From Siderastrea siderea (taxonomy: Eukaryota; Cnidaria; Anthozoa; Scleractinia; Rhizangiidae): a DNA stretch of 64,000 bases. Below are positions 1,173 through 49,013 of the stretch, piece by piece. The notes under the pieces were generated by a model. That model saw only the letters and a program-made list of their open reading frames with translations. It ran no database searches and was not told the origin of the DNA. The first letter of the stretch is position 1. The number at the start of each line of letters is the position of its first letter. The DNA lies in the NCBI GenBank assembly GCA_964030785.1, contig OZ034970.1, forward strand, positions 34,302,943-34,366,942. Direction: 5' to 3'. The translations under genes were made by a program, and so were the position numbers.

Positions 1173-1698
1173 CATGAAGGACTGAACAAAGAGAGTTTTA
1201 AAAAGGAGAACAGTGATAACAGGTCCAAGTATCTCACAGTGGAACTCATTTGTAAAGAGGACAAAAGTTCAGTCTTAAATGACACTCAACTGAATACGTT
1301 GAACAAAGATTAAGGTGAGCTCAGCAGAACAACAGTACACTTTGCCAATGATAAGTTTACTTTTGATGACTTTTTAAGCTGACTAAGCTTCAATGGATGA
1401 GATTGTATTAATGGTAAAAGATAATAAATTTTTCTGTCACAAAAGTGATTGTTCCTTAATTTGAAAACCTTTTTTAAGTTCTCAATATTCCACTCCCTTT
1501 CAAACAGCAAATGCTGGCCTGTGGCATGTAAAGCGTACAGCCACCCAAGTGCAGGCTGCTGTGAACAAGCTGGGGAACACTTCATTTGTTTGATGTTTAA
1601 GTCAAGCTTCAGTTCACCAACAATTTTTGTTAGCTGGGAAACCCTTCTGTTATGTAATCTTTGCTTGTTACAGAATGATTTCTTATGATCAAACTGAA

Positions 1699-1853
1699 AT
1701 AGGCCTGTGAACAGGCTCTCTGGTCGGGGAAAGAGCGAAGAAAACAAAGGGCAAGAACAAACAGAGAGACAGGGAGGGGACTATGCTCCACTTGCTCCGC
1801 TTGCTGATTTATTTTTGCACTTTTCCCCACTGCAGAGCCTGTTCACAGGCTAA
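1699..1853. mobile_element. small foldback (MITE-like) element
   Basis: Near-perfect ~20-bp inverted repeats bound a ~155-bp segment: GCCTGTGAACAGGCTCT on the left and AGAGCCTGTTCACAGGC on the right. Each arm is itself palindromic (AGCCTGTgaACAGGCT). No coding capacity. Consistent with a non-autonomous foldback element; the superfamily is not determinable. Confidence 0.6.
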
Positions 1854-1960
1854 GCTGAAATTCACACAACAAGGGGCATACTTGCCACTGCATGATATTG
1901 TTTTAAAACCAGACAAACAGCTATACACATAAAGCTCTCAGTAGCTTTGTATTATAATTT

Positions 1961-1987
1961 GGTAAATTGTGATCATCACAATTTACC
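1961..1987. repeat. 13-bp-arm perfect palindrome
   Basis: GGTAAATTGTGAT and its reverse complement are separated by one base. The surrounding ~85 bp is bracketed by a 16-bp direct repeat, GTAGCTTTGTATTATA, near 1941 and 2027, so this may be the footprint of a small insertion. Confidence 0.55.
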
Positions 1988-2599
1988 GAATTATGACATG
2001 ACTCCTGGGTTCAAACCATTTATAGTAGCTTTGTATTATACACAGTGAAGCACTAGCTGTGCTATCCAACACACATTTTTGACTTCATTTACCAGAATTA
2101 CAGAATTGTTGTGACTAGGTTTGTCAATTATTATGAATCCTTATATTTAGCAAAAAGGAAAATAATGTAGCATGTCAATCCCAGGCTATGAAGCTTCGTT
2201 TCCACTTAGGAGAAGGAGAGCATTCAAACAGAAAACAAGAAAGGAACAAAATCTCTTCTGGATAAATGAACTTTAAATGAAGCATGTTTACTGGACATGC
2301 AAGTGAGGGCAGCACTTTCATCTCACACATGACTGGAACAAAAAAATTGTAGTTACACAACTGGGAATGCCAAAATCAAATTTGAGCAAATTGGTGAGTG
2401 ATCATGACCACAAAAGTTAGTAATAAGAACTTTAAAGATCTTAAAGCTCCATAGAGTTTCCACAGACTGATGTACTCTTTGGGAAATTTATCATGGGACA
2501 TTCACCTTTGGTGGAGAGAGGGTTCAGAATGCAGAATATATTATTTACATATTTGAATATATTATTTAACAGATGATAATTTTGCATGTTGTAAGTATT
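1988..2599. other. noncoding, no gene recognised
   Basis: AT-rich sequence without supported ORFs. It may contain the inner, diverged continuation of the transposon end annotated from ~2600, but I could not follow the similarity further. Confidence 0.35.
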
Positions 2600-3347
2600 T
2601 CGGCAAGTATTTAGGCCATGGGGCCTCTCTACATTATGTAGGGTTAAGCACTCATTCCAGAGACAATTGGCTTTCAGTTATTGTTTCACAGTCACTTGAC
2701 AGTTACAAGACTTCAATGATGACTTTTAAGGATTCTCTGGTCTGCAAAAACCCTGCCAAGAAGTCTTGACTTTTGAATGTAACTCTTAAATGGACTGCCA
2801 ACTATCTGCTCAAGTTGGAACAGTAGATCTATATGAATTGATTATATAACTGGATGAGTCCAATTGAACTTCTTAAATTATTGCCAGAGACTCAGTGTTA
2901 AAACTAAAAATCATTTATATTAATTCACTGTTTATCCAGTGTTCTAATCCTGGCTACACTGCAGTAATTCCGAAAACTGTTAGCTGACCATATCTGACCT
3001 GACCTGACTTGTAACAGAAATGGCTCAGGTCATCTACCCAAGAAAACTGTTCAGGCTGGCCTTGACATTTGCCAGTCATTATTGCCTTTATTCTACCAGA
3101 CCAACCTAGCCAGCCCATGACTGGCCTGGGCCGCCCTGGGCCGGCCCTGGCCAGTGAATAGCCAGAGAAAATTGAAGTTGGCCAGCCTTAGCCGGCCCGG
3201 GCCGGCCAAGGCCATGCTGGGCCAGGCCAGTTTTCTGGCCTGGGCTGGCCCAGGCCAGCTATGGCAGGGCCAGGCCGGCCTGGGCCAGGTAAGGCCGGCC
3301 CAGGCCAGCCTGGGCTGGCCCGAGCAGGACATTTTTTTGCACGGGCG
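2600..3347. mobile_element. detached end of the GGCC-terminus CACTA-like transposon
   Basis: Read on the plus strand, this segment matches the reverse complement of 22409 to about 23150, the transposase-side end of the large element. Shared blocks include GTTGGCTTTCAG-type sequence, 'CACTTGACAGTT', 'AACTTCTTAAAT', 'GTTCTAATCCTGG'-like text and 'CTGTTAGCTGA'. It then shows the same GGCC-rich array (3098-3330) and the same terminal motif, GCAGGACATTTTTTTGCACGGG, with small differences. Only one end is present and no transposase exon is recognisable, so it is a truncated or solo end. ORFs called inside the GGCC array are composition artefacts. Confidence 0.75.
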
Positions 3348-4812
3348 AGTTCTGTGACACATCCAGGCTTACAAAATGAAATGAAATTTCAGCCAAATCT
3401 TTCATTGAGAATTTTTCTATGCCCTGTATGTCACTTGAAAGTAACGGCAAACTTTCTTCCAGGAAGTGATGCGGGAACTTCTGTAACACATACAGGCTTA
3501 CAAAACGAAATGAAGTTTCAGCCAAGTCTTTTACTCAGAATTTTTCTATGCCACTGTGTGTCACTTGAAAGTAACGGCAAACTTTCTTCCAGGAAATGAT
3601 GCGGGAACTTCTGTGACACCTCCAGGGCTTACAAAATGAAATGAAATTTCAGCCAAATCTTTCATTGAGAATTTTTCTATGCCCTGTATGTCACTTGAAA
3701 GTAACGGCAAACTTTCTTCCAGGAAGTGATGCGGGCACTTCTGTAACACATCCAGGCTTACAAAATGAATTGAAGTTTCAGCCAAGTCTTTTATTCAGAA
3801 TTTTTCTATGCCACTGTGTGTCAATTGAAAGTAACGGCAAACTTTCTTCCAGGAAGTGATGCGGGAACTTGTGTGACACATCCAGGCTTACAAAATGAAA
3901 TGAAATTTCAGCCAAATCTTTCATTGAGTATTTTTCTATGCCACTGTGTGTCACTTGAAAGTAACGGCAAACTTTCTTCCAGGAAGTGATGCGGTAACTT
4001 CTGTGACACATCCAGGCTTACAAAATGAAATGAAATTTCAGCCAAATCTTTCATTGAGAATTTTTCTATGCCCTGTATGTCACTTGAAAGTAACGGCAAA
4101 CTTCCTTCCAGGAAGTGATGCGGGAACTTCTGTGACACATCCAGGCTTACAAAATGAAATAAAATTTCTGCCAAATCTTTCATTGAGAATTTTTCTATGC
4201 CACTGTATGTCACTTGAAAGTAACGGCAGACTTTCTTCCAGGAAGTGATGCAGGAACTTCTGTGACACATCCAGGCTTACAAAATGAAATGGAATTTCAG
4301 CCAATTCTTTTATTGAGAATTTTTCTATGCCACTGTATGTCACTTGAAAGTAACGGCAAACTTTCTTCCAGGAAGTGATGCGGGAACTTCTGACACACCC
4401 AGGCTTACAAAATGAAATGAAATTTCAGCCAAATCTTTCATTGAGAATTTTTCTATGCCACTGTATGTCACTTGAAAGTAACGGCAGACTTTCTTCCTGG
4501 AAGTGATGCGGGAACTTCTTTGACACATCCAGAAGAAGTTCTGTGTCACATCAAGGCTTACAAAAAATGAAATTTCAGCCAAATCTTTTATTCAGAATTT
4601 TTCTACGCCACTGTATGTCACTTGAAAGTAACGACAAACTTTGTTGCAGGAAATGATGCGGGAACTTCTGTGACACATCCAGGCTTACAAAATGAAATGA
4701 AATTTCAGCAAAATCTTTTATTGAGAATTTTTCTATGCCACTGTACGTCACTTGAAAGTAATGGGAAACTTTCTTCCAGGAAGTGTTGTGGGTATTTCTG
4801 TGACACACTGTA
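3348..4812. repeat. tandem array, ~130-bp unit, about 11 copies
   Basis: The landmark 'CATCCAGGCTTACAAAATGA' recurs at about 3360, 3490, 3620, 3750, 3880, 4010, 4139, 4269, 4397, 4551 and 4678, a period of 128-130 bp. Units differ by point changes; one near 4510-4550 has an extra ~25 bp. The first unit begins directly at the terminus of the transposon end, within 'acTTCTGTGACACATCC', which suggests the transposon inserted into the satellite. ORFs on both strands here only reflect the repeat period. Confidence 0.9.
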
Positions 4813-5394
4813 ACCCACTTGAAGTCTATTAAATGTAATGGGAAGCTCTCACCTCTGAAGCCATCTTGAACAAAACAGGAAACAATCCTGAAATATAGAA
4901 AAAAAAAGGGAATGAGCTGTTTTCTACAAAGAATCCATTTATTTCTGTGTGAGTCACAGCATAAAAAATAAAAGGTTAAGCGTCGGTTCTCGAGTCTTGC
5001 TCACAAAGATTTCTCCGAAATGTTTATAATTCTGACTTTTGTGTCCATTTTGGGGGCATTTTACGATTCACTAAATAAGTGTGACTACTTATCTTAGATC
5101 ACTTATTTCGTTTTTTTTAAAGCTAATTTAGCCTCTTAGTTTGGGTGCGCACTCGAATTTGGACTCGAGTCATAGGTAGTCTTAACACTAGAGCCCAAAT
5201 AAGGTAAGAAATATTTTTTAAGTACTTCAAGTAAAATAAAGCTTCACACAAAATCGTTGCTTGTTTACTTCAAGTTAAGTTTAGCTTAATTTCCCACGTG
5301 ATTAATAAATATTGATTGACAAACCTCGCCTTCTAAAAGCTCAAGAAACCTCAAGTTCGCTTAGTCGGTTGTAAGGATGGTTTTCAAATCATTT
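4813..5394. other. noncoding, no gene recognised
   Basis: AT-rich, no supported coding sequence, RNA gene or inverted repeat seen. Confidence 0.4.
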
Positions 5395-6890
5395 GAAATT
5401 TTTTTTGAATCGTCTCAACTTTCCGACTTTAATGAGATGCAAAGTGAAGTTACTCAAGATTTTACAGGGGTCTTCACACGCGTATTGTTGGTTAAGTACA
5501 ACTTAGCAGCTCTTACGTCTTAACGGCCGAGTGTTGAGATAGCCGACGGTCTAGTTGAATATTATCGTAAAATCTAAATTGATTTTTACAATCACAGAAG
5601 CAATATTTTGAATAAAAACGAGCAAATAAAAGGTCCACGCTTATGAGTCGTAAATTAATTCGCATAACCGTCGTCTTGACAAGACGGCATCACTACAAAG
5701 AAGCTTTGTTCTGATTTCGAGCCTCGGACAGGTCCAGGCAAAAATTTGTTTCTTCCAATCTTAAACTGTTTCGTTTATTTTCGTATTCTTTCTACCACTA
5801 AGCTTCGCGAGCCTCTACGAGACATGTATCTCTAGTTGTATGTAACTTCCAGCTAACGCCAAACGTAACTTAACTTGAATTCCAAAATTTTGTCTCATAC
5901 ACGTGAGCACGCTAAAAATACTCTTGTTTTGCGTGCATTGGTAAATTGCTGCCACTACTTTCCTTTACATCAATAAGTATTGTTTTATCTTGAAGCAATC
6001 GGTGGAATTAAACCCCATTGTCATTTAGAAAACGTTTGCGTTTGAGGAGAAAGCAAAAGTTATAGGAGCTTACACTTATTACACAGTGTCACCACGTGAA
6101 ACTTTTCTTGGATCGTTTCAACTTTCCGACTTTAATGAGATGCAAAGTGGAGTTAAGATTTTTGGTTAAGTAAAACTTAGCAGCTCTTACGTCTTAACAG
6201 CCAAGTGTTGAGGTAGCCAACGGTCGAGTTGAATATTATCGTAAAATATAAATTCATTTTTACAATCACAAAAACACACTTCGAATAAAAACGAGGGAAA
6301 AAAGACTCACGCTTATGAGCCGTAATTCGCGTAACCGTCGTCTTGACAAGACGGCATCACTACAAAGAAGCTTTGTTCTAATTTCGAGCCTCGGACAGGC
6401 CCAAGCAATTTTTTTTTCTTCCAAACTTCATTTTCTTCGTTTATTTTCGTGTTCTTTCTACTCGGAAGCTTCGCGAGCCTCTACGAGACACGTATTTCTA
6501 GTTGCAAGTAACTTCTTGCTAACGTGAAACGTAAGTTAACTTGAATTCAAACATTTCATCGCATACACATGAGCACGCTAAAATACTCGTTTGTTTTGCG
6601 CGCACTGGTAAATTACACGCGACTACGTTCCTTTACATCAATAAGTATTGTTTTATCTTGAAGCAATCGGTTCAATCAATATTCCAAGAAAAAATGGAAA
6701 AGCTATTAAAGGAATGGAATGAAAGCCCATTGTCTTTTAGAAAACGTTTGCGTTTGAGAAGAAAGAAGAATTACACTTACACAGTGTCGACCAGTGTCAC
6801 TACGTGTGATGAAGAGATCTCGATCACAGGAACATCGGGAACGCCGTCTTCGAATTCGTCGCTGAAAACGAGCAGACACATGTTTCAGTG
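5395..6890. repeat. direct duplication of a ~0.7-kb segment
   Basis: Two diverged copies lie head to tail. Copy one is about 5395-6110, copy two about 6112-6890. Both share in order 'CAACTTTCCGACTTTAATGA', 'CTTAGCAGCTCTTACGTCTT', 'GAATATTATCGTAAAAT', 'CGTCTTGACAAGACGGCATC', 'GAAGCTTCGCGAGCCTCTAC', 'TCTTGAAGCAATCGGT' and 'AGAAAACGTTTGCGTTTGAG'. The second copy holds an extra ~45 bp with an ATG (see 6694-6891). The embedded palindrome GTCTTGACAAGAC is preserved in both. Confidence 0.85.
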
Positions 6891-6891
6891 A
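6694..6891 (+). CDS. hypothetical short ORF in the second duplicate
   Basis: A 65-codon frame starts at ATG 6694 (MEKLLKEWNESP). It has a basic centre (RKRLRLRRKK) and a Ser/Thr-rich tail. The upstream text 'ATATTCCAAG' could be a splice acceptor, giving a coding exon rather than a complete gene. The corresponding part of the first duplicate lacks the start and is broken. No family recognised. Confidence 0.2.
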   Translation: MEKLLKEWNESPLSFRKRLRLRRKKNYTYTVSTSVTTCDEEISITGTSGTPSSNSSLKTSRHMFQ

Positions 6892-7464
6892 TACTTGTGT
6901 TTTCAGAAATAACCATTAACGTGCTCCCAAGGCAAACTTTTATACGCACCTTCCTATTTCTGTTAGTCACATGTATGCAGAAACCGCCCGGTCCAGGAAC
7001 GTAAAGGTTATGAAGATCACATGTCGCCCCTTGGTCGCTTTACCTGTCATCTTCCTGTCATCAGCGATGTTATCTTGTTTCATGCTATAAATGCGAACCA
7101 ATCAGATTTTTACCGGAAATCACAGCGCCTTGTTGGGAAGCAAAGGCGGGAAGGCGAGCGGGAAATAGCATGTCGAAGTCGTTTAATTTCGAAACATCTC
7201 TAATCTGTAACTCTCTCTATAAACGTTGATCTGCAGATCTTTCAATATCCGTTAGGAATTTCATTATCCTGCAAGCAACATTCTCTAAGGACCTCTAAGA
7301 AATAACTGGTCAAAGCCCAGGGGGGTGAAAGCCAAACTGTAACAGCAAACAAAGCAAAGGAGCTTGACACTCCAGGCTATTACCGCCCTACCAGAACGGC
7401 ACTACAAGACTCTTTTGTTTTACAACCAGCCAGACAAAAAAACAAACAAAACGCCTGATCGCTA

Positions 7465-7677
7465 GAGTACGAGCTGTCTCTCTTTCCACTCAGGGATAGT
7501 CGAGGGAAACGAACAAGCGAGCGGGCGCAAAAATTGTCCGCGTTGTTGAAACGGGACGCGCGTGTCAAGGCGCTAGTGTGGTGAGTTCGACACGCGCGTC
7601 ATGTTTCAACGCTCGCGCTCGCTCGCTTGTTCGTTTTCCCCGACTACGGTAGCGGAAAGAGAGACTGCTCGTAGTCT
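7465..7677. mobile_element. long imperfect foldback element
   Basis: Two ~90-100-bp arms around a ~20-bp spacer are inverted copies of each other. The left arm contains CTGTCTCTCTTTCC, AAACGAACAAGCGAGCG and GACGCGCGTGTC. The right arm contains GACACGCGCGTC, CGCTCGCTTGTTCGTTTTCC and GGAAAGAGAGAC. The centre is unusually CpG-rich (ACGCGCGT). No ORF. Best read as a MITE or foldback transposon; a cruciform-forming locus is also possible. Confidence 0.75.
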
Positions 7678-9465
7678 ACCTGATGGCAGGTTAGACGTGA
7701 CGGTGAAGACGGTCGGCGGTGACTGGATAACACACAATATTCGCTGCACCACCGGAAATTAACGACCGGCTTTTTTGAATTTTACAGAGAAACACAGAGA
7801 GAGCTATTAGCCGTGGCCACACTATTTACGTTGGGCAAATTCACCAAAAAAGTTCCCGAGGTAATTTCTTCTCGGTTTCTTTTTACCTAGGAAAAAGGAA
7901 AGGTCACACTACGGAAATTTAGCCGAGATAAATAAATAGCCGTTGTAATAAACTGGGTTCGGCGCATCTTAAGGATACAAGCTGTTTGTGTTAAAAAAAA
8001 AAAAAACACAATCCTTAACGGCACCTGAAACTTAATTGAAATTTCAAATCCGGAATTAAGAAGATACAATCTTGCTCTGAATTGGGACATCGCGTCTATT
8101 GGTTAGCTACGTTGGTAATTGAATTTTCCCTAGCTATCGCCTTGGGGTAGCTGTCAAGTGAAACTCTATTGTTCTCGATACATATCTCCAAGCTCCAGAC
8201 GATAAAATTTCCGCGAGGTAAATTATCGAAGAAATAATCGGTTACACTTTAAAAATTCGGTTTCAACAAGTTTCCCTTAGAAAAAATTCTGTAGTGTGAC
8301 CACAGCTATTGTTGTGATCATGCCTTGAAGGGCTCTTTCCTTCCTTACCAGGGCGGGAAAAGGTTTGTCTATTTCCTTAAAATTGGTTCGATCTTGGGGT
8401 GGAATATTTTCTCTCCTTTGTGACTGGCAAAATACGGCTGGCTGGTTGGATATTTGAATGTGCAACATGCACAAGTTGGGATTTCACGTCCAGTATGTGC
8501 TTTAATTTATGTACCACCATTTCGACTCTGATTTCGACTACAACATTTGGCGCCAGGAGTTCCTGTTGGCGCGTGAAAGTTTTCATTCATAATTACTTTT
8601 AGTAGAAATCAAACAAAGGTGTATTGCTTTGTCGTTATAGATTTTGCGATATCAGCGTTTATAAACGTTCTGTCTTAGTATTCTGTCTGTTACTCATTTG
8701 ACAGTCGCTCGAATTTATCTGCTCTCGGAAAAGCTACGTGTTTTTGTTCATGAGAAACCCTCAGGCCTTAGAAACAGAAAGTTCGGTCATCTGAAATGAC
8801 CGAACTTTGATCCCTACCCGCTATAAGACAATAGGAGCCGTTGACAGGGCACACAGTCGGTTTCTCCTCTGGCCTCTAGTAAGCGAATGTTAATCGTCAG
8901 TCACAAGTCAACACTTGACGAGGCACACAGTTGGACTCTCGTGTGTTCTCTGGTAAAACGACTGTGTAACCATCAGTCACACGTCAACTTTTCACGGTGC
9001 TTGCAAAATATCGAAACATGCGAGCGCAAGAACCGCTTCGCTTCGTTCTTTTTACTTGCGGTTCAGCTTTTCGATAGTTCGCCTCCGCTTCTTCAGACAT
9101 GCCGTACTGAGCCGAATAATTAATAGTCAGGCGAGGCAAGCAAACGTGACAGACAATACAACACGCAGTCAGTCCACTTTTTTCGGGAGGGGGAGGTTAG
9201 GTGGGAGGGTGTTATAATTTGAAATTGTTGTACATGCAAGCATTAGACTACCTGGACTTGATGTTTCCGGTCATTTACTGCAATATTCTAGTAATGAATG
9301 GGTGAATTGAAAAATATATATATTCTCATACCTGTTATAATTATGCTTCATTCAGTTTTGTTTATCATTAGAAATTAGCAAGGGTAGGGTGAGTTGACAT
9401 TTTTTATTGTCAGGAAGTAAGCTATGTTCTTCACTTCCGTTTACAATTCCGCTCAGTGAGTCTAT
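7678..9465. other. noncoding; one perfect hairpin
   Basis: No supported gene. AAAGTTCGGTCAT at 8778-8790 is followed after five bases by its exact reverse complement at 8796-8808, a 13-bp hairpin. A similar phrase, 'AGTCACA-GTCAAC', occurs twice in the next 150 bp. The remainder is AT-rich with short chance ORFs. Confidence 0.4.
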
Positions 9466-13375: not shown

Positions 13376-15692
13376 TCGGCAGGTAAGGTAACTCTAGCAG
13401 GTGGGAGAACTTTTTCTCATATAAACACTTTTTCTCGCCTACCCGGGACGACTTGACGTAGCGTCTGGCTCTTGGCTTAAAAACGCCTACATCAACAAAA
13501 TGTATACTGGAGAAGAAAAATTTTCACAAGCAGAGGCTACAGTGATCAAATCAACGAAAAATTCTGAAGGAAAAGGGCGTATTGAGACAACTTTTCTCCA
13601 TTTAAAGCACCTTTAAGCGTTTTGAAAAGCCGAAAATCCCTGAAGTCTCCCACTTTATCAATCTGGAACAGTAACATAAATTTGTTTTTTTTTTCCCGTC
13701 ATTCTTCTGTCTTCTGTCTCCACGGTCGATAAAACACTTTTGCCAACAAATTTTTGGGAAAACAAGAGTACCGACTGCAGGAACCATGGAACCATTCAGG
13801 TAGCAAAAGAATCGTAGAGCGGCTTGCAGTACAACCACGGCGAACAGGTAGATAGTGTAGTTTTTCGGGTTTTTCAAAAATGCACGTCAAACGTGAGTGG
13901 TTCAAGTTTGAATGTCACAAATCTCTACACGGAGTAAAATATTAACTAATCGAGGTCTTCGGATTTGTTCAGGCTTCTTTACCAGGTTTAGAAAGGAAAT
14001 AAATTTTCATTCTCCTTTTTCCTTTTATTCGCCTCAAGCGAGAAGATGACGGATTCTTTTATTCGGTCAAGTGTGGGGGTATACCTGAGCTCGAAAGATG
14101 GTTATACAAACATCAAACTCATCAAACGCTATGCTGTGCTTTAGGCGAGTTAAACACGTAGCTTTATTTACGTGTCAAACCATGTAGCTTGGGATAATCC
14201 CATACTAATTTAAGGGGACACAAAATAAGAATATACAAAAATTAAGATAGAAACCCTGTTCACGGCAGATAGGCAAAAAAAACACACTCCGTCAAGCAGA
14301 ATGTCCAAGGCCGTATAGCGGATTACTCCCCCCCCCCCCCCCCAAGAAGGGGGAGTAGTATTATCGAAGTATTAAACAGCGCTACACACCTAAGAAATTT
14401 CTAAATACGAGGACAACGAATGTTAGTGCATGAAAGTGTACATTTATTAGGCTACTTACTTTGCATTTTGCATCGAGGACAGAGATGCCCCAGAAGCTCT
14501 CGTTTGTAATTCAGGGTAAATTACATTTTACATTATTCAAAAATGAATAAAATGCGAAAAATAAACCTCAAACCTTTGAAAATTGGAAGCTTCTCATACA
14601 TTTACAATTTATTTTCTCAGTAATCAGTAACTGTTTCACTGTTTTGAGTTAAATAATCCACCCCCCTCGTGATCAACAGTAAATATCTGACGTGTAACCT
14701 ATTCAGATCCCTAGTGTTTTCGGATATGCGAATTCAGTTCCTATGACATTCGGAAACAATTAATAACTTCTATGATTTTCGCCAAAATTTTTTGGAAAAT
14801 CGGAGTTTAGGAAAACGTCCCCTAAAATTTTCGCCAAAAAAAGGACGAACACGTAATCTAAAGTTTTCGAACAGACCGGTCACGATTGCTAGAACTTTCG
14901 GATGGGGCAAAAAAGCCACCTAGAAATTTCTACAGACCATAAGTTCCCCTAGAACATCCGAACAGATAAATCTTTTGTAGGACGGCTCCAAACGCACTAA
15001 ACGAGCTTTTAAAGCATTGGCGAAACCATTTTAGGTCATTCTAAAGGATTTTGAGACATCAGGTCGTTGGGTGCCCCTGTCTCTTAAATGTTCGGTGATC
15101 CCAGATTTTCTTTATCGATCATCTACGTTTTATGAAAAATGGAACAAAGTCTGTGTTGGGGACATTTGATTTTTTTTCAACTTTTCTTCCCACACATCAT
15201 CAAATTCTGCTATTATTTAAGCTGCACGGTGTTGGCAAAAGTCCATTTCAAAGGTTGAGTTTAACTGAAAGGATGACACCAGTTCAAATTGTTTGCTTGA
15301 CAGACCCACTTGAATGAAATTCGGCGAATTATTTTTAATATTTTTCAACTAACAACCACTGCGGCGATGTGGAGTTACAAGGGCCGATTTGTCAAAACTG
15401 GAGTAGTTTTCCACGTGCTTTATTTGACAAAGCCGGTGACACCCCAATGTTTTTGCATTTCTGACATAGGTAACTGATTATCTTACTGTGGCAAAAGTAT
15501 GAAAAATCTGAGTTGTAGAAGATTCTCGCGTGAACGTCCTTAGAAACAACAAAAAAAACACTTTATGACCAGGATCCAAGCATTGGTTGTCGATGTCTAC
15601 TCTACTTCCTACTTGAAATTACTTAAACACTAAATGTTTTCTGAATAATGAATGTATAAATATCATATATTACAACTGCGGGATGAATAATT
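13376..15692. other. noncoding; homopolymer tract
   Basis: No supported gene. A poly-C run of about 15-17 bases occurs at 14328-14344 and a poly-G run near 13352-13364. The rest is AT-rich. Confidence 0.4.
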
Positions 15693-15946
15693 AAATGTAA
15701 AGAAGAACAACGCAGTTATAGACGCAACTTCTGCAGTTGCGAAAAGAGAGCCTGAAAAAAATTCAGGCTCGTATGGGATTCGAAACCATCAGCTCTCAGT
15801 TGGCTTGTTAGCTCAATTGGTTAGAGCGCTGCACAGGTATCGCAGAGTTCAAGGCTTCGATCCCGACAAAGCCTGAATTTTTTTCCGGCTTTCTTTTCGC
15901 AACTACAAAAGTTGCGTCTATAACTGCGATGATCTTCTTTACATTT
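15693..15946 (+). mobile_element. foldback element carrying a tRNA-like sequence
   Basis: Imperfect inverted arms (left 15693-15772, right about 15874-15946) share 'AACTGCGATGATCTTCTTTA', 'TTTTCGCAACT' and 'CAGGCT'. Inside is a 72-nt tRNA-like sequence at 15802-15873: A-box text TAGCTCAATTGG, a D-arm GCTC/GAGC pair, an anticodon-like arm CTGC/GCAG and B-box-like TTCGATCCC. The anticodon loop lacks the conserved T33 and the acceptor pairs imperfectly, so it is a tRNA-derived pol III relic, not a functional tRNA. A related copy is at 44445-44616. Confidence 0.75.
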
Positions 15947-17559
15947 ATTAATTGTTTTCTGTTTCTTTCTCTTCACTTGCAGAGGAAGAATGCTGGCTGC
16001 ACTGTTGTTGGAAGACGTCCTCTCCTAGAAAAGAAAAAGGTTCTTTTAAGAGCCACTTGTTTTACAGTGAGAAAAAAAACAAAAACAAAATAGACAAGAC
16101 AAACAAAAAACAAAACAAAAAAACGTAAAACAAAACAAAAACGGCTCTTTTAGGAGCCACCACATAATACAAAAGTGAATGACCAACAAATATGAATTTA
16201 ACATTTAATTTTCCAGTGAAGAGTACTTATATTATGCTTCCCATTTAAAACATTTAGTTTTAACCATTACGTTTTTTGTTAACTATAGTTAATAATTGAA
16301 ACTTGTGCGTTAGGCATATCGTTTGACGACTACAAGCAAAGTAATATACACATGTAAGGGTGATGAAGTTTTTCATTTATGTTGACTTCGGACTAATCAA
16401 CGAATGTGCGCTAAATGAAAAAACGGCTGTTATTTAGAGCAGTCCTCGAATAAGTACATATTTAGTACTTATAACCTGCGAACTACATGTACTATAACAT
16501 ATATTTCAACAACCAATGGCTAAGAAGTGCTTCACTGTCACACTGAGCAATCTAAGTTGTAAAACGTATCTATAATAACTCAAAAATATATTTTAGGCCA
16601 CCAAAAAGTCTGGGAAGACTGTATTTACGGCAGCAATACCTTAAAATGCCACAACGTTGTATCTAAACGAACCTAGCATGTTCCTATGTGCTGTTTTGCA
16701 AAGAAGAGGCTACTGCCTCATAAAAATTTATTGTATTCTCGCATTTCATTACAAATAATGGACAAGTGAATGAAGGAAGGAATTGTCCATATATGGACAA
16801 TATTTGTGTGCTGTCTGTCTGCCTATATCAGCTCCTGTATAAAACTTCCTGCTGGGACTACTGCACTTCAACCTCTCATGACTGTTTACGCCTTTCACTT
16901 TCTCTGTCTCCTAGTGGGTAAACAGAAATAGCATATTACAGGTATAAAGGTTACAACGAAAAGATTACTAACTCAACACAACATATCGTCCTGTCAATAA
17001 CATTTTTAAGTGGCTTTTGATAAGTGATGAAAGTCCGCGTAAGTCTTTTCCAGGGCTGAGTAAATTTAATTAACACAAATGTCCTAAGCCTGTTTCAGAC
17101 GGGAGTATCGTTTGTAGGAGTCGATCATACACTGATATTTTTTTTAATCAAAGTGCTTTGTCCTTTTCTATCGCCTTCTTTGTCGTCTAGCTACACGATA
17201 GCAGTAACGTTTGCTAGAAAGCTCTATAAGCGTATTCAAGCATCCAAAAAAATGCTAAAAAATTAGTTTTAAACTGAGTTTACCGTCTTTCTGTTTTATT
17301 CGACGGGAACAAAATCTGCTTTTTTGTCGGAGTTTTTTCGGCAAAAACTTCTCAACAAGCAAGTGTAGAGTCATAAAAAATACATGCATTATTTATGCTA
17401 TCCCTCTGGAATGTTCATGTCTTCTCAAACAAATTTAACAGTGGCTAGTTACTGTTGTCAGCGGTAGCTCAGTTTGATGGGCCAGAAGAAAAGACACACA
17501 CCTTTTGTCTGGATAAATTTTGGCTATGTGCAAGCAACACATAGCCGCTTTAATATTCC
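15947..17559. other. noncoding; hairpin near the retrotransposon end
   Basis: A-rich sequence without genes. GGCTATGTG at 17522-17530 and CACATAGCC at 17538-17546 form a 9-bp hairpin with a 7-nt loop, close to the 3' side of the following retrotransposon. I could not tell whether this lies inside the element. Confidence 0.35.
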
Positions 17560-30028: not shown

Positions 30029-33000
30029 ATGTCTTCCGGTAAACGATCAAAACGAGTCAAAGGTATTCAATCATTTGTTGTGAAACATTCAGCAGTATTT
30101 ATTTCCGTGATCAACGCAGCAAAGTCGTAAGCTTACATGGTTCATTTCGCGATCTTCCTCACCTCTTCATTTGCAGTACCCAAATTTTTCCTCATGGGTT
30201 TCAATGAAGACGAGACTGTAAAATTTTGCATCGTGGAAAAAAACAAACTTCGTGTAGCAGAATCTGAAGACTGCACCACGGGATCACTGGTAAACGTCAA
30301 GTGGCAGGACAACAATGAATACCAAGGCAAAATCTTTGGAATGAGCGGTACGTAAAATATTTTGTGATAAGATCTTAAAGAAATACCTTCTGTTAAAGTA
30401 ATTCATAAACGTAAGAACCCTTAGTTAAACAATTTCAAAACTGAACTTTCCAAATTTTAAGTCGGGTTTCAAAAATGAAATCCTGAAACAATTTTTTCTT
30501 ATTCAGACTCTCAGTGAAATTATGCTTTTCTAGCGTAGTAGTTACAAAACTTAATTGCTGCCAAGAATAAATGTATATTCCATATTTAATTTCTAGATGA
30601 CAAGAAAGAACTGGAAAAACTGCAGTGCACATTGTGTAGCTATCAGAGTTTTTCAGAGAAATCTTCCAGTGAAAGTAACAATACTGACAACTTGGTTGTT
30701 GAGGCATTACAAAATGACCCAGCAGAGGTGAGTTTATGACCAGTGATACTTTTTGGGATAACGTTTTCCCTATTCTGGGCCTGTCATATGTACTAGGTAA
30801 TTTGGATCTGCTACTGGAAATTCACATAGTCAGCACATGCATGGTGTCTAAATGTAGAGTTCAATATTGGCACAGTAAGAAAGGGACAACACAGTGTAAA
30901 TCAGCAAATTTGTAATGGTAATTGGACTGAGTGGAGCACAATTCAGGGAGTAATCGGGTGAGTAATTTTAAATGGCCAAGTGCGTAGCGCGAGTATGATT
31001 TGAAATTACGAGCACGATTATCCCTGAATTATACGACACAAAGTCCAGTTACCAATCAATTAATCTTATCTATAACAAAATGTGAGATTGGAAAATCTAT
31101 GTGCCCTTCAGGGATATATTTTTAAATATCAGTTTTGCAAGCAGTGAAGAAACAGCTATAAAAAGAACCCATTTCAGTGCTCCTGATTGATGCGCGCGCA
31201 GCATAGCTGTCCGATTACACAATCGAGCATTTTGTTATAGATACGACACTAACAATCGACACAAGATAATTTTTTAATGTTATTGTGTCACGATTGAACA
31301 CCAACCTTTTACCAGATGTTTACTTTGTGGCAAATTTCAACGTACCGTAATAAATAGTCTCAAATAGTGCAATGAGACAAAATAGACATAATAATCAACA
31401 ACACTAATAATAGCACAACAATTACACCCCTTAGAGGGAATGTTAAGCAAGGGACAGTGGGCTATTTTTGATTTAGAGATGTTGCTATAACAGGTAGATG
31501 ACAAGACTGAAGTTCAGGAGCTGGATTCACAGTTGTCGGCATATGAAAAGGAACGCTTAAAGAATATAGAAAAAAACAACAAAATCCTCAATGATCTTGG
31601 CTTGTTGGTGGTGAGTAATATCTTTTAGTTAACTTTGAACCTGATAACTAAAAGATGAAGGTGTTTCAACTTCACTGCGATGATCTTCATATAATTCTAT
31701 CTTTATCCGCAATTCATATATTTCATATATTCATATTCAAGAATGACAATTGCTGAAGAGAACAATTGTAAGTCTAAGAGGACAATAACCCTTATTTTCA
31801 AAATTAATAGATCATCCATTTGACAAACATTGTAAATGCTCTGTAAGAATCGATTACAAACAGTCCTTTTGGCCAAGAATAGTCAAACATGAATTGTGCT
31901 AGCATGTGCAGGTCCCCCATATAGGGGGACATGGTGTTTTTGCAAAGCAGGTGGCTTGTATTGGGGTATCAAAGTGAGAAATATTACTTCTCACTAAACT
32001 GACCCTGGGCCAAGAAAGAAATGGTTCATAGACTGCAAATTACGGTATATTGACAACTAATTACATGGTTCTTTTTTCAACAGAAGCAAAATAAAACAGA
32101 TTCAGAAGTTCCAAAGAAAAATAATAAGAAAAGGGTAAGTAAAAAAAGTTGTTTCTACAACAACAACAACAAGCTTTATTACCGAATAGAAAAAGGAAAA
32201 AAAAAGTTAAACTTTACAATATAATATATTAATACAAAAATAGGTAATGTTTACTCAGGATAACTAAAAAGCTAAACGAGCTGAGTAAAACTAAGTGATG
32301 TTTAAGTACAGAGGTAGGTTGGCACTAAAGCTTGGTGAAAGCAATTAATTAGTCAATTAAAAAAAGACGAAAAGAAGAAAATAAAGAAAATAAATAAGTA
32401 AAAATAAATAAATAAATAAATAAAATAAATAAACAACTACCAGTTGAAAACTCATGAACAGTAAGACTGTAAGATGTTTAGCTTGACTTTGTTTTTAAAC
32501 GTTTTAAGGGGGAGGTATTTAATGCTTTCATCAAGGTGATTCCAAACTTTTACAGCTGCAAAGCGAATGTTGAATTTACCATAGTTTGTTTTGATGGTAT
32601 TGATGTAATAGGTCGATTTAGAAGCAAGCCTAGTATGTGTGCTTGTTTTAAAGTTGATATTGACTGATGAAAAACTATTGGTTCACAGAAGGAGAAGGAT
32701 TCACCCCCTCTGGAGCAGGAAGCTTCTGAAGACCCAAGCACAAAAGGTAGTCCTTCAGCCTGTTACTTTACTTTAAATAAAATTAATTAATTGTAAACCA
32801 TCGTCCTAATAAGGACCCTTATTAGGTTTTTTTGGGAATAAGCACCCCTACTCCAATAGGGCCCCTAGAACCACTACACCAAGTCCTTTAGTGACCTGCC
32901 TTTGCTTATCATACTTTTGAACCTTTGTTTCTGAAACTATGTTTAATAATATTGCAGTGATTCTGTTACTACTTCACATATATAAAATTTCTAATTTAAA

Positions 33001-42535: not shown

Positions 42536-42717
42536 GTAATATTCAGCACTACGACAGTACGTAGCTTATGACGGTTCCAGTTCCTCGACTTCGAACTCAC
42601 TAGGAAAGGTAGCGTTAAGTTTTGCATTGGCCGTATTAAATGAAAAAGATGTAAAACCCTATTGGTGGGATCTATTGAGGTCAACAAATCACAGAAAAAA
42701 ACGACTTCTGCAATTTA

Positions 42718-42797
42718 CAGCCGATTTCAGTGCAGTGTGTAGACCCGGGTTTTTTGAAACATGATTCGCCGTGCATGATTCGCCCGTAATGATTCGA
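42718..42797. repeat. left TIR with iterated ATGATTCG
   Basis: The inner part carries three spaced copies, ACATGATTCGCC, GCATGATTCGCC and TAATGATTCGAC. They are candidate transposase-binding repeats. The accessory gene's start codon is at 42850, so its promoter must lie in or next to this TIR. Confidence 0.8.
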
Positions 42798-42849
42798 CGA
42801 TAGTCACGTGATTCTGACAAGGTTTACCTGCACGTGGTGTAAACTGAAA

Positions 42850-45800
42850 ATGGAGGATAGTAGCGTTTCTTCCATGGAGGATAGTAGTGTTTCTTCCATC
42901 ATAAGCGGGAGGCAGGCCCTGCTTTACGTAAACACAAAGGATGGTAAAGCAAGAGGTGTCCCAACAAATTGCTTTCTACCAGAAGAGGAGTCGTTTAGCG
43001 CGTGGAAGGGAGTCATTCGACGTTCAATAGCAGAACTGGAATCTATTGTTGTTACCGATGTCATAATCGAAAAAATGTATTTTGTGACCAAAAGCTCGCG
43101 GTCTTTGTCATTGACAGGCCTCGTCGGAGACGATGGTGTGCTAGCAGCGATGCTTGAATACCCACTGCGCCAAAAGAATGGGAAAAAAAGTACTGCGATA
43201 ACAAAGCTAGCCTGCGACTGGCACAAAAAGGGTAAGTAGCAACATTTGATTGACGAAGCGAGATTTGCTGATATTTTTCGGTGGTAAATTGTATTTTCTT
43301 CAGCTTATCCCCTTATGTTTGATTTATTAGTATCCTGAATATTTGTTATTGCCAATCTAAGACTAGTCTAATTAACCGCCGCTTCGGCGGGGCGACAAGA
43401 ACTTGCGAGTTTCATTGTGTCATTCTGCATTGTTTTTCATCTGTGCCCAGTTATCTCTCGCCAAAAGACGGCAACAAACGACACTAAAATATTGCTCAAA
43501 GCGAGAGTTTCGTCTCCCGTGGTGATACTGCCGAATATTATCACTTCTGAAATGTTTTTGAGGTTTACCTGGTGAATGCTGGACCTGATGGGCGAAGCTG
43601 TTCCTTTTTTGGCGCGAATATCTAAGATTGTGACTTGTCTTTACATGTAATGATTCCAGCTAAGGTTTTATGCCTTACATTTCGTTGAAAATAATCTTTT
43701 AACCCGATATCTCGTCATTTACTTATAAGTAAAGCTGTGGCAATAGTTAATTCAGTAATAATTCAGTTACTCATCCGCTTGTTTGGCGAAAAACGGCTTG
43801 TAATAATCTCGAATAATTTATTTATTTCTACTGTTTATATAGGATTCGCTTCTCCCGCCCGTTCATCTCCACGTCTGCAAAAGACCGATGATTATACCTT
43901 TAACATCTACGTAACAGCGGGAGTAAAACCTCCTTCAACAGCACAAGGACCAGTGTATACTATACACGATGTTTCTTCTCAAGCTAATCTTCATGCCATC
44001 AAGAAGTTGATCCGGGAACAAATCCCCGATGTCTGCCTCAAAGCGGGGTTTTTTTGGCTTCCCAAGAAAGGAAAGCAATGCCATGCATTGTGCACCGATG
44101 TTGATTTAAACACAGCTAAAGACGAATACAACCAAGGGGGGACCGTGAAGAATTTAAGGCTGGCTGTGGCAACGATTTCCAGTAAGCCCCTAGTTTGAGT
44201 ATTTATATCAGTTACATCAATAATGATGGGCAAACTTTTTGTGGATGCATGCATATATTTACATTCATTAGCAAGAGCTGTTGTTTATCAGGAGTTACTT
44301 GAACTTGCTTTCAATCTGGTAACTAGCAAACATTTGTAAACATTTGTTTGAACACTCTATATTTGGGGTTTCCGAACAAGCAGGGTATGACATCCTGAAT
44401 TTGTGTTGTCAGGCTGAGTCACCAATCATTACCTTAAGTGTAGAGAAGATCCTCGCAGTTATTAAAGCAACTTATGCAGTTGCGAAAAGAAAGCCTGAAA
44501 AAAATCAGGCTTGCCAGGATTCGAACCCTGACCTCTGCGATACCGGTGCAGCGCTCTTTTTTTCAGGCTTTCTTTTCGCAACTGCATAAGTTGCTTTAAT
44601 AACTGCGAGGATCTTCTTTACACTTATTTCTTCATTCCGCAGTTCAAATATATGAGTTTCATATATTCATAATTTAATCATTACCTGATAGGGCAATGGT
44701 TTCTTTACCTCATATAGGCTGCTTACGTATGGTTAAAATTTCTGTGATATTTATATTTCAATTTCTTTCTGCTTTTTATCTGATTTGAATTGCACAGATT
44801 CATTGGAGAAGAAAATTAACAGTAGAAATTTGTAGATAAGGAATGTGAAATGAATTATTCTGACCATAAAGCAATCACAGAACTTGTGGCCTTCTGCTGG
44901 GATAAGCTATTGAATACTGCAATTTTCGCTTGGGCGATTTTTTTTTTCCATTTCAGACCACCTGATATTCTATAAAAAAGTTCTTTTCACTATCTTAAAA
45001 TTATTCATTCATATAAATGTCACTATTTGACAATTTCAAAGTAAGAATTCTCAAGAGTATCATCACATTGTCTGAAATTGGACAACACACTGGCCAAGCT
45101 AATAAGGTCTATTTTTATTTTAGGTGGTGGAAATTCATCAGCAACAGTAAGGAGGGCCATCATGCCTCATGATGAAAAAGCCAAAAGAAGGAAAACATTC
45201 CCCTCCACAGATAGTGACAGTGGTGATAGTGATGATGAAGCTGCTTTTCAAAAGTTTCTCAAAGGCCAAGGTCAAGGTAAACTTAAGTCCTCCAACGACA
45301 GTTGGAATGCCTGTCATTTGGAACTGAGAAAAACTCTAGAACAAGCTGGGACCCTGGATCGATACGGTATTAAGCATCTCAGTTTATGGACAGATCTTAT
45401 CAGAGATGGTACGGTGTCGGGATGCCATGAAGAACCTGACTGGACTAAGTATCTACATGTCGTACATGTGGCACCCCTTCCAAAGAGAGGGTTGGGGTTT
45501 ACACGTGCAAGGGGGCCAAATGATGTACTCACCAATTTTCTCCTGCATCGTGAGGAAGAAAGACAATGGGAAAGACAACAGCAATCTTCCCTCCATGCCT
45601 TGCTGTTATCAGCATTGTCACCAACAGTAAGACCACTTACCAATGATGGTGCATCAGCTTCTTCCCCTGCAACTCAGTGTTCAAAAGAAGGCACAGAAGG
45701 AAATCAAGGTCAGTGTACTGAACAGAGTCTTCAACCCACTAGGAGACAAATTAAATATAATACTTGGTCTCCACCATCGTTTTCCTCCAGTTCTCCAGAG

Positions 45801-46194
45801 TCAATTAAAGACTCACCAGCAAATAGTAATTCTCCAATAATTGTTAGCTCTGACACAACAGAAAGTGATGGCTCAGAGCCCTTTGACTTTGATGAATGGG
45901 TAAACGATCAGATTGCCATGTGCAGAAGAATTCAAAGTTCATGATTATCTATTAATTGGAAAAAAATTTTCATTACTAGTCTCCTTAGGTCTCTTGCAAA
46001 TGAGTGTTGAAGATGTGGGACAAGCATTAACAATGCTGAAGCTAGGAAAGTATGTTCAGTCCTTTCAAGACCAACAAATAGATGGTGCTGTCTTAGCACA
46101 TTTAAATGATGAAGGCCTTCAGCAACTGGGAATGAATGAACAGTTGCATCGTTCCATTTTACTTGGATTTGTTTCAAAAAAGCAATTGGCCTAG
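42850..46194 (+). CDS. accessory protein with C-terminal SAM domain, 4 exons
   Basis: Exons: 42850-43231, 43843-44181, 45124-45708, 45989-46194. All introns are phase 1 with GT-AG ends, giving an uninterrupted 503-aa frame. The N-terminus has a repeated MEDSSVSS. Exon 1 (~10-127) is a compact alpha/beta stretch ('RQALLYVNTKDGKARGVPTN') I do not recognise. Exon 2 starts 'YTFNIYVTAGVKPPST' and might be ubiquitin- or PB1-like (weak inference). Exon 3 is acidic and Ser-rich. Exon 4 (~436-503) is a SAM domain ('VEDVGQALTMLKLGKYVQSF', 'IDGAVLAHLNDEGLQQLGM'), a protein-protein or polymerisation module. Reading through the last donor instead gives a 513-aa form without SAM, stopping at 45944. It probably partners the transposase or host factors; function unknown. 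Confidence 0.78.
44445..44616. mobile_element. perfect 60-bp foldback carrying a truncated tRNA-like core
   Basis: Left arm 44445-44504 and right arm 44557-44616 are exact reverse complements (60 of 60; e.g. GAAGATCCTCGCAGTTATTA). The 52-nt loop, read on the minus strand, is the 3' part of a tRNA: GAGC, GCTGCACCGGTATCGCAG, B box GGTTCGAATCC, then GGCAAGCC. The A-box half is missing. It lies in intron 2 of the SAM gene. Same family as 15693-15946. Confidence 0.9.
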
Positions 46195-46548
46195 ACACCA
46201 ATTAACTTAAGGAAAAAGTATGGTGCTTTGAAGTTTTCACGAAAATAAATTCTGTATTTTGTGTTACTAAATTCTGTAATTCTTGTTGTGTTTTAGTTTC
46301 TCCCCTCTCTTCGGAAGGAAACATCTGTTACTCGTGGCTTAAAAATTTAGTTCCACAATTTGATATTAGATTGTTAATGTTCCTTGTAAAATCATAGTTT
46401 TCAACATATGATAACTGTACCATGTACTGGTTTATATAACCATTGGATAGTTGAAAGTTGGAGGATCATGTGGGCTAATACCAGTCAGTAGTTACTCAAT
46501 AAAATGTGCAATCTCAAACATTGTAATGCTTTATTTGTCATTTGTATC

Positions 46549-48924
46549 TCAGTATCTGTAGCCACTGTCAGTGAAGAAACTCTGGGCGTCATCTGCGGTG
46601 ACCTGAAAATAATATGAGGTTTTTAGTAAACAACAATACTGCAACTTTTAAATGGAGACCCCTTTTGGAATTGCATAGATTCATTTTGAAATTGTTAGTT
46701 GGTCAGTATCACACTGGTGGACATAAAAAATATTTCCCCTTTCCCAATTCTTTCCCAATTCTTTTTAAAGGATAAGACAGTACTTATTTTCTAATAAAAC
46801 TGTATACATGAAGTCATACCTGCTAGAAAATGCATTGTCTGTATGTTGTGGGAATAGCAACTTAGTGTCCAGTTATAAGAGGTGACAAGTAGAAGTTATT
46901 TGTGCAGTAGATATTTCATTGGCTTCAATTTATAGGCATGCTACAAATTATCAAAATATGGATAATTATACATTTCAATTACCTCCTCAAGAGCTCTAGC
47001 CATGCAGTACTTTGGATTGATTCTTGTGACATGTCTGTTTCTCTTCAGAATTGCTTTCGCCAAGGAAAAAGCATACTCAATTGGGTTCAGGTCTGGGGAG
47101 TAGGGCCTACCAAAGGAAAAAATGTTTTACCATTATTTAATTGAAATCCAAGGAGTAGTGGATGCACTTACGACAATGAGGGAAACTCATTTTTATTATA
47201 TGTTCAAGGTTTTGTGCCAGCACTCATATTTTAACCATGGCAACAGGAAACTTACAATTGGCCAACTAACATTCTGATCAGAGCCAATGAGAAAAGAGGT
47301 GGTCACCAAAATTTATTATAACATTACTTGACATGAACATTTCATTGGTCAGACAGTTTCTATTAATGGCTCTGCTGACAGAACACAAAACACAGAAAAC
47401 ATAAATACATTAATTTCATGTAAATTAATACATACGGTAAGAATACTGCAATTCCTCCTTTCCGCCGGATGATGTCGATGGTCTCATTAGAATCATGTAT
47501 TCTGCAGTTATCCATTACCACAACAGAGCGTGGCTCCCCTAGGGCAAATCTACCAATGCTGGGTGCAATAAAGTTCTCTAAGGCAAAGTTAAAATCTTCC
47601 GTATTGAATGCATTGGGTACAGTATGAGAAGCAACAATGCCATTGATATCCAGTGCAGCCACCACACTATATCTCTCTTCCCTAATGAAGTCTCCAACAA
47701 CATGGGAACTGAATCCTGGCCGGAAGTGCCCCATCTCTCTCTAAATGGAGGAAAACAAATTGCTGTGGTCTTAAAGTTAGAAAAGAGAAAGATGCCCAGG
47801 AAAGAAAAGTCCAGCTAACCGATAATAACATCCAATCAGGTTCTGTCTTAGGTCCAAATAGGATATAGAAATCATTATTTTTGAAAATATACCAAAAAAT
47901 ATATTTTGGAGTAAAACAAGATAATTAGTGACTTGGAGATGTGTGGCACACCTGCACCATTACTTGACATAAGTTTATTTTAACATTATTTACAACTTGA
48001 AGAGTTCAATTCTACATGTATTACAACATCATGAATTAAGAAAATGTTTAAATAATTAATTGTTTCTAGCTTAATTTTTTTTCAATTTAAAATATTTTAC
48101 CACCCTTACCTGTAACTTCTTCTTGTCTTTTGCTGTTTCGTCAATAAATAAGAACATATCCTGCGGTATATCAGCTACAAAGCGACAGTAAGTTGCTCTT
48201 TCTAGTTCACTTCTTTGTTTGGCAATGACCCTCAACTATCGAGAACAAAATTAACAGCCACACGAGTTTCTTAATATTTTCCCTTTCAATAGCATTTGCA
48301 TTTGAAGTAACTGTCAACAGTCTAGTATACATCGAAGCAGATGCTTGTAGCTATGTACTGCAGCAAAGGAAAGATTACAATAACCCAACACTTATTTATA
48401 AAACTAAAGAAAATTCATTTAGGTAAGAGTTACCTTTTTATATGTAAATCCAAGGCGAAGTATCGACCTGCACATAGTTGCGATGCTAATCTGGGTTCCT
48501 GTGACTGTTTGAAACCAGTCTTGATACTCGTCTATATACAGCTCCGGCTTACTCCTTATCATCGCCTCCAGAATTCTGTTTTCTCTATCTGTTCGAATAT
48601 TACATAAGGTATGTTTGTGGTACAAAACCTTATTTTTGCTTGTCATGCCAAAGCATATACTAGTAAGCTTTAGCTAAACTAACTTTGAAATAAACAGGCT
48701 TTTACTAGATACTTAAGCGTACTTACGGGACAAGATTCTCTGCCTCCCACGTCTTCTCTTCTGGCTTACCTCTCCACGCTCCCTGTATAGCTTCCGAATT
48801 TTAGAGACGAAGCCAGTACTCGTAAAAAGATTCCGGCGGTTTCTTTTATTGAACTACCGTAAAAATGTTGGTGATAAATCACTCGCCATCTTAGGTCTTC
48901 GTGCAACGCTTTCATCGTTGACAT
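46549..48924 (-). pseudogene. DD34E Tc1/mariner-type transposase, 6 exons, one frame break
   Basis: Exons: ~48924-48727, 48588-48434, 48235-48110, 47740-47436, 47106-46983, 46602-46549. GT-AG junctions and phases agree for exons 2-6. The N-terminal helix-turn-helix is in exon 1 ('HEDLRWRVIYHQHFYGSSIK', then, in another frame, 'GFVSKIRKLYRERGEVSQKR'). The switch falls near an A/T homopolymer at 48824-48828 (five T on the coding strand). GRQRIL and the second helical region follow. Catalytic residues: D in LFIDETAKD (exon 3), D in VVVMDNCRIHDS (exon 4) and E in LNPIEYAFSLAK (exon 5), with 34 residues between the last two across the PPYSPDLNPIE junction. It ends 'DDAQSFFTDSGYRY'. It would cut and join the element at TA. 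This copy is probably inactive unless exon 1 is spliced differently. Confidence 0.85.
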
Positions 48925-48939
48925 TCAGCTTGGTAACCT

Positions 48940-49011
48940 CGCGGTCGAATCATGCACGGGCGAATCATGTTTCAAAAAACCTGGGTCTACACACTGCACT
49001 GAAATCGGCTG
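48940..49011. repeat. right TIR of the Tc1/mariner-type element
   Basis: Inverted copy of the left terminus, ending ...AATCGGCTG before TA. It has two rather than three ATGATTCG copies. The transposase start lies ~15-25 bp inside, so the TIR probably contains its promoter. Confidence 0.85.
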
Positions 49012-49013
49012 TA

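Follow-up and report, generated by a model that had tools for sequence, protein, structure and literature searches.

A coral transposon family that pairs a DD34E transposase with a SAM-domain protein, a probable cofactor of transposition

Tc1/mariner elements are the textbook transposons that need only their transposase, and a single intronless transposase ORF is usual, though not universal, in the Tc1 family. According to the literature excerpts on which we draw for comparison, Tc1/mariner elements typically measure 1.3-2.5 kb (PMC8533490), transposases with 3-5 introns occur in the molluscan TLEWI elements, i.e. Tc1-like elements with introns (PMC10379824), and pogo elements harbour one or two ORFs and reach 5.2 kb (PMC7386202). 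Also in the Tc1/mariner group, the DD34E elements TBE and Tec of ciliates carry additional ORFs: by the excerpted account, one for a zinc finger protein, one for a site-specific recombinase and a small one of unknown function (PMC7325037). PIF/Harbinger elements encode a transposase and a second protein, both of them required; the Myb-like partner of Harbinger3_DR is described in the same excerpt as binding a subterminal motif and as needed for nuclear co-localisation (PMC9710019).

The window, a 64,000-nucleotide stretch of the genome of the coral Siderastrea siderea, contains an element of 6,294 bp (42718-49011). Its left (42718..42787, plus strand, CAGCCGATTTCAGTGCAGTG...) and right (48942..49011, minus strand) terminal inverted repeats both begin with CAGCCGATTTCAG and match at 95.7% over 70 bp (E 4e-25), with 98% over a 56-nt core, as expected for the IS630-Tc1-mariner group. 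The flanking sequences are ..TTTA upstream and TAATA.. downstream, which places a TA on each side (42716..42717 and 49012..49013), the presumed target site duplication. The inverted termini of about 70 bp and the TA flanks described in an earlier, sequence-only reading of this locus were thus borne out. Three ATGATTCG repeats spaced 14 bp apart lie at the left end (42761..42796, plus strand) and two spaced 15 bp apart in the right inverted repeat; they are candidate protein-binding sites. In all nine end-to-end copies found in this genome, the element is preceded by TTA and followed by TAA, with TA at both sides, a pattern also readable as longer ends without duplication; no site lacking the element was observed. 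A piggyBac reading, with TTA and TAA as a TTAA duplication, was rejected, as the flanks are not TTAA twice and the enzyme belongs to DDE_3. Coral MITEs with TTAA duplications, described as piggyBac-related in an excerpt of PMC2872659, have other ends and represent a separate family. A palindromic sequence with AATCATTACCT at both sides, nested in intron 2 of the second gene (44435..44675), is a later insertion, missing from three of the nine copies (L011, L015 and L016_17).

The transposase gene is on the minus strand and comprises six exons separated by GT..AG introns. Exon 1 (48727..48924) is followed by exon 2 (48434..48588), with an HTH-like region whose match to Pfam HTH_32 is weak and below cut-off, exon 3 (48110..48235), with the first catalytic Asp in FIDET, exon 4 (47436..47740), with the second in VVVMDN, exon 5 (46983..47106), with the catalytic Glu in PYSPDLNPIE, and exon 6 (46549..46602), which encodes the C-terminus up to ADDAQSFFTDSGYRY and the stop codon. 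The second Asp and the Glu are 34 residues apart (numbered on copy L009), hence DD34E, and the protein matches Pfam DDE_3 (E 1.8e-21); both features are those of IS630-Tc1-mariner enzymes, with their DD34-41E/D spacing and DDE_3 family. The six-exon DD34E transposase of the sequence-only reading therefore stands as a gene model, except that exon 1 of the window copy is frameshifted relative to exons 2-6, which leaves the window copy unable to produce the modelled enzyme. Exon 1 is open in L009-L014 and L016_17, and the transposase frame is open in seven of the nine end-to-end copies.

With Tc1, IS630 and the fungal 'Tc1-mariner class', the coral element shares the DD34E catalytic domain of DDE_3 type, inverted repeats, TA flanks and a weak HTH match, but it differs from them by its 6.3-kb length, five introns, second gene and TTAA context. 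With six exons and a second gene, it departs from the single intronless transposase ORF of Tc1 proper. Pogo belongs to the same wider group but has a DDxD catalytic domain, in contrast with DD34E here, and the Pfam match is to DDE_3 rather than to DDE_1, the model for pogo. Compared by description only, TLEWI elements have in common an intron-bearing Tc1/mariner transposase, whereas the excerpted description mentions no second gene for them (PMC10379824). The additional ORFs of TBE and Tec, as listed in the excerpt, are of other types than the PB1-like/SAM partner found here, and their hosts are ciliates, not a coral (PMC7325037). Introns and extra ORFs are each already known in the Tc1/IS630 group; their present combination is new.

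The transposase gives weak profile matches with Sleeping Beauty (E 6.7e-4) and with SETMAR, which derives from mariner (E 1.1e-5). Among non-animal sequences, it is most similar to fungal and metagenome proteins, with identities of about 30-37%, and plasmid IS630 transposases match at about 30%, serving only to place the enzyme. By sequence similarity, the closest non-animal relatives found are fungal and IS630-like transposases. The label 'Tc1/mariner-type' initially given to the element fits its ends and catalytic triad, with the qualification that the nearest non-animal relatives found are fungal and metagenome proteins and that our DDE tree (112 rows) was built without reference Tc1 or mariner sequences. 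In this tree, a transposase of the bivalve Solemya adjoins the coral clade, and those of the octocoral Dendronephthya and of Montipora group together, with that of the stony coral Oculina outside (98/81). This topology does not follow the relations of the three hosts, and dating the gene pairing by host divergence was discarded for that reason. Paralogy or horizontal transfer are possible causes of the discordance.

The second gene, hereafter the accessory gene, is on the plus strand, tail to tail with the transposase gene, and has four exons. In its product, a beta/alpha domain precedes a PB1-like domain, after which a conserved core and a charged helix lead to the SAM domain at the C-terminus. 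Exon 1 (42850..43231), aligned with relatives P0002 and P0003, codes for the beta/alpha domain, which might also be PB1-like, although the model is poor. The model of the whole protein was too poor for a fold search, but that of exon 2 alone (43843..44181), which harbours an RSSPRL motif, was usable and adopts a PB1-like fold. No Pfam PB1 match was listed at E values up to 10, and we therefore use the term 'PB1-like'. Exon 3 (45124..45708) encodes a KAKRRK stretch, whose basic character, judged by eye, suggests a nuclear location, as well as the WNxxHxELRK..LWTDLI..EEPDW core, which is conserved, and the helix. Exon 4 (45989..46194) encodes the SAM domain (SAM_2, E 5.1e-9) and the stop codon; its two scores with the Pfam SAM_1/SAM_2 profiles, 36.6 and 33.4 bits, exceed the respective cut-offs of 20.5 and 23, and its PDB sequence matches are the SAM domains of SHANK, SARM1 and Bicaudal-C. 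The four-exon gene ending in a SAM domain is thus confirmed, but comparison with relatives P0001 and P0004 makes a donor site at 45708 (junction NQG-LLQ) more likely than the one at ~45936 as the site joined to the SAM exon. Reading through this donor yields a non-SAM ending (45709..45944, YNTWSPP...FDFDEWVNDQIAMCRRIQSS stop) that is kept in P0003 and in six of nine exon-3 relatives (P0125-P0133). This alternative ending is apparently conserved, and SAM and non-SAM isoforms of the accessory protein look likely.

This element represents a two-gene transposon family and, with somewhat better than even confidence, we consider its second protein to be a transposition cofactor. The element would move by cut and paste, with duplication of TA. 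PB1 and SAM are protein-protein interaction modules that can polymerise, and the accessory protein would therefore multimerise. It might bind the transposase, the subterminal ATGATTCG repeats or both, and join the distant ends, which are 6-7 kb apart and thus long for this class, or else carry the transposase to the nucleus or chromatin. The two isoforms could then set assembly against capping. Assembling the transpososome or tethering host factors, the roles first proposed for the SAM protein, would fit its predicted PB1-like and SAM domains. As a self-assembling cofactor it would resemble Harbinger's Myb-like partner, a functional analogy only, given the other transposase superfamily and the other partner fold. 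Alternatively, the accessory protein might act on the host side, as a SAM/PB1 scaffold by which chromatin silencing is either recruited or blocked, such that the element is expressed or inserts into permissive chromatin. SAM domains occur in Polycomb proteins, and the domain logic, the putative nuclear location and the non-SAM ending are all compatible with this explanation; nevertheless, no observation made here ties the protein to chromatin, and we regard it as unlikely.

Bearing on the cofactor reading are the copies collected across the genome (830.9 Mb) by an exact 13-base terminus, which matched 47 times, against eight for a reversed-pattern control. Nine end-to-end copies lie at unrelated sites, all of them with both genes in the same arrangement. 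Both frames are open in five; six young copies differ by 0.1-0.6%. Among the 29 unpaired matches, one is a tenth, truncated copy (L036), seven are BLAST-similar to the ends (L021, L023, L034, L038, L040, L041, L042), three resemble them by eye (L018, L025, L033) and 18 look unrelated by eye. The sequence-only reading had proposed an unusual lineage with a co-transposing partner, to be refuted if termini enclosed the transposase alone or if the SAM gene were an ordinary host gene. No ends enclosing only a transposase were found with this terminus, and queries with the exon-3 core detected no host copy in this genome. Of 14 accessory loci, 13 adjoin a transposase of the same family, the last being a short fragment. 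The pairing is repeated in this genome by a second element, a distant one, and at one more locus, and the tail-to-tail layout recurs in L043 and L046. The proposal is thus supported, with one locus of the distant family (C2:35761198) against it, where no accessory match adjoins the transposase. Searches of viral contigs by terminus and by protein yielded no copies.

The same gene pairing is apparently present in Oculina and probably in Dendronephthya. Accessory relatives P0001 and P0002 show 61% and 42% protein identity over 53% and 97% of the query, respectively, and a Montipora foliosa protein matches at 92%. These data bear on another alternative, that a host gene was captured once and is carried along as a passenger or decoy that plays no part in transposition. 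Animal proteins commonly contain SAM domains, and the PDB matches are ordinary host SAM proteins; moreover, the accessory gene is broken in three older copies, two of which retain an open transposase, and C2:35761198 lacks the partner. However, the partner and layout shared by two distant clades of transposases, the pairing in Oculina and probably Dendronephthya, the protein identities of 61% and 42%, the failure of exon-3 queries to reveal an unlinked host homologue in this genome and the open SAM isoform in all six young copies argue against it, and we deem it slightly less probable still than the chromatin scaffold. As for two nested elements or neighbouring genes brought together by chance within a single pair of ends, the tail-to-tail orientation of the genes and their separate introns would in principle allow two independent units, but their identical arrangement in nine of nine copies and the repeated layout in L043 and L046 make this highly improbable.

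As the same two genes recur in the copies and relatives that we examined, the transposase and the accessory protein probably work together in transposition. More tentatively, and with less than even confidence, we propose that the element represents an animal IS630/Tc1-type lineage in which two proteins are both indispensable for movement, the partner being a polymerising PB1-SAM scaffold rather than a DNA-binding protein and its isoforms an assembly switch, and that the pair has been kept while at least two clades of transposases diverged. If a conserved scaffold partner is confirmed, the rule that these transposons need only their transposase would become testable in animals, and a second two-component model would stand beside Harbinger. 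With its near-identical young copies and both frames open in five of nine, this recently active coral element offers an experimental starting point.

The transposon in the window runs from 42718 to 49011, and inspection of its ends and flanks showed these boundaries, proposed in a sequence-only reading, to be exact. The two termini, described there as inverted repeats of ~70 bp, align over 70 bp at 95.7% identity (E 4e-25), and the TA flanks are present as well, with ..TTTA preceding and TAATA.. following the copy. The accessory, SAM-domain gene was modelled on the plus strand with four exons, as claimed (42850-43231, 43843-44181, 45124-45708 and 45989-46194), and all its introns are GT-AG and in phase 1. 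The transposase gene, on the minus strand, has the expected six exons (48924-48727, 48588-48434, 48235-48110, 47740-47436, 47106-46983 and 46602-46549), but in the gene model exon 1 is out of frame with the others in the window copy. A single open frame of 320 residues spans the six exons in seven of the nine end-to-end copies, and the catalytic residues are D150, D237 and E272 (numbering of copy L009). The two stop codons are about 350 bp apart, and thus the genes are arranged tail to tail.

A search of the genome (830.9 Mb, 402 contigs) with the exact 13-base terminus gave 47 matches versus 8 for the reversed pattern. Nine convergent terminus pairs were found, including that of the window, and the eight further end-to-end copies were retrieved for comparison. 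Over long aligned pieces, their identity with the window copy is 96-99.8%, and one 66-bp piece has 92%. One copy (L013) has a 744-bp insert inside a transposase intron, and another (L016/L017) is interrupted and stretched to 11.4 kb. BLAST among the 300-bp flanks of the nine copies found none similar to another, indicating independent insertions. All nine read TTA-CAG...CTG-TAA at their junctions. All nine also harbour both the accessory gene and the transposase, the co-occurrence that the earlier reading had proposed to check. The frame of the SAM isoform (accessory exon 3 spliced to exon 4) is open in six of the nine, and both frames are open in five (L009, L010, L012, L013 and L014). Six young copies diverge from one another by 0.11-0.64%, and pairs involving any of the three older ones by 1.25-2.09%. 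In a tenth copy, L036, the end on the side of the accessory gene is gone, but accessory exons 3 and 4 and all four transposase exons queried remain.

Accessory intron 2 of the window copy contains a nested insertion of ~241 bp (44435-44675), missing from three of the nine copies, with palindromic 70-nt arms and AATCATTACCT on either side; by eye, its GGATTCGAACCC box resembles a tRNA-derived SINE. Similar sequences occur at 15644-15949 and 31674-31735 of the window and in some retrieved loci. Short, non-coding, MITE-like elements with transposon-like ends were also observed (L034 301-612, 312 bp; L040 301-432, 132 bp; L038 301-734; L042 ~6899-7401), and L042 has several consecutive end-like repeats.

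The genome was also searched for accessory genes standing alone, repeat counts from such searches being lower bounds. The exon-3 core gave 17 matches, which collapse into 14 loci, ten of them the copies above and four diverged. Another query, taken from the most distant family, hit only loci of this set. Transposase exon 4 detected 15 loci, namely the ten copies, loci on contigs C3, C5, C9 and C2, and a weak, unpaired match on C1; a second transposase query returned the same set without C1. Combining these exon-3, exon-4 and second-query searches, 13 of the 14 accessory loci are paired with an opposite-strand transposase of the family, on C9 across 17 kb. The 14th (C10:39138950) is an unpaired short fragment known from its search match. 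One transposase (C2:35761198, 97% identical to the type at the diverged locus L046) has no accessory match beside it.

L046 is a second, distant two-gene element family whose ends differ from those of the window element. The element (903-7998) carries a tail-to-tail gene pair between inverted ends of about 108 bp, flanked by TTA...TAA. Compared with the ends of the window element, its ends agree at 10 and 11 of the first 15 bp, with TTTCAGTG in register, and at 19 and 21 of the first 40 bp. L046 and all nine end-to-end copies sit in T-TA-A (TTAA), an apparent target narrower than the bare TA that is usual in this class. Exon by exon, the L046 transposase shows 52-88% identity to P0012 of Acropora. 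In the L046 accessory gene, exons 1 and 2 have matches, the core reads LWTDMI..EEPQW, a SAM domain is present (SAM_2 6.9e-6), and exon 3 lies partly in one frame and partly in another. The stretch of L043 that was read, inside its outer ends, likewise pairs the two genes; its SAM-like stretch (E 0.0028) is under the Pfam cut-off, and one transposase exon contains a stop. On C9, L045+L044 comprise a near copy of the L046 accessory gene and one end matching that of L046. No transposase was found there in the 11.5 kb read; an L046-type transposase lies about 17 kb from the accessory gene, the intervening stretch having been read in part.

Protein searches for the accessory gene, both of which scored only about 7,990 candidates, identified relatives in Desmophyllum (P0001), Dendronephthya (P0002) and Oculina (P0003 and, on a different contig, P0004), and nine more exon-3 relatives (P0125-P0133). 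Among the best 120 of 931 transposase relatives, the closest are from Montipora foliosa (92%), M. capricornis (86%), Dendronephthya (62%) and Oculina (61%), followed by proteins of Solemya, Exaiptasia, Porites, Acropora and Nematostella and, further off, by unnamed and fungal ones. Based on contig sizes in the records and locus names, the two genes appear to be linked in Oculina (P0004 and P0008, 11,796-bp contig, consecutive locus numbers) and Dendronephthya (P0002 and P0006, 3,293,897-bp contig).

In a 112-row transposase tree (the window and 111 of these 120 relatives, nine short or near-duplicate rows being omitted), the window falls in one clade with M. foliosa, Dendronephthya and Oculina (support 99/98). 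Next to this clade is Solemya with a metagenome protein, then Exaiptasia, Acropora, Porites and Nematostella. The DDE tree departs from host relations, and host ages therefore cannot date the pairing. In a tree of 19 chosen rows, L046 is placed with Acropora, and L043 with Porites. On this tree the label 'accessory found beside' shows no clustering (4 changes, a number reached or undercut in 178 of 500 shuffles), as only a minority of the 19 rows had been checked for a neighbour. The six-row accessory tree separates L043 and the L046 family from the window, Desmophyllum, Dendronephthya and Oculina (100/100). The accessory proteins thus divide as their transposases do, a pattern compatible with a long history together.

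Introns in Tc1/mariner transposons (TLEWI; PMC10379824), additional ORFs in TBE and Tec elements (PMC7325037) and pogo elements with one or two ORFs (PMC7386202) have each been published separately. None of the titles and abstract openings searched, which lay outside Repbase and most subscription journals, reported a SAM or PB1 gene in a Tc1/mariner-type element; Repbase may already hold a consensus of the two-gene element.

PB1 and SAM domains are both capable of head-to-tail polymerisation, and structural matches of the PB1-like domain predicted in accessory exon 2 include p62 PB1 filaments. The accessory protein would thus most likely be a scaffold joining transposases or ends. It might act through the ATGATTCG repeats near the element ends, three on the left and two on the right, as candidate sites. 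For Harbinger, both proteins are reported to be required, the partner binding a subterminal motif and being needed for nuclear co-localisation (PMC9710019). Harbinger offers a precedent for two-protein transposition, and by analogy the SAM-domain protein may play an accessory role in transposition of the window element.
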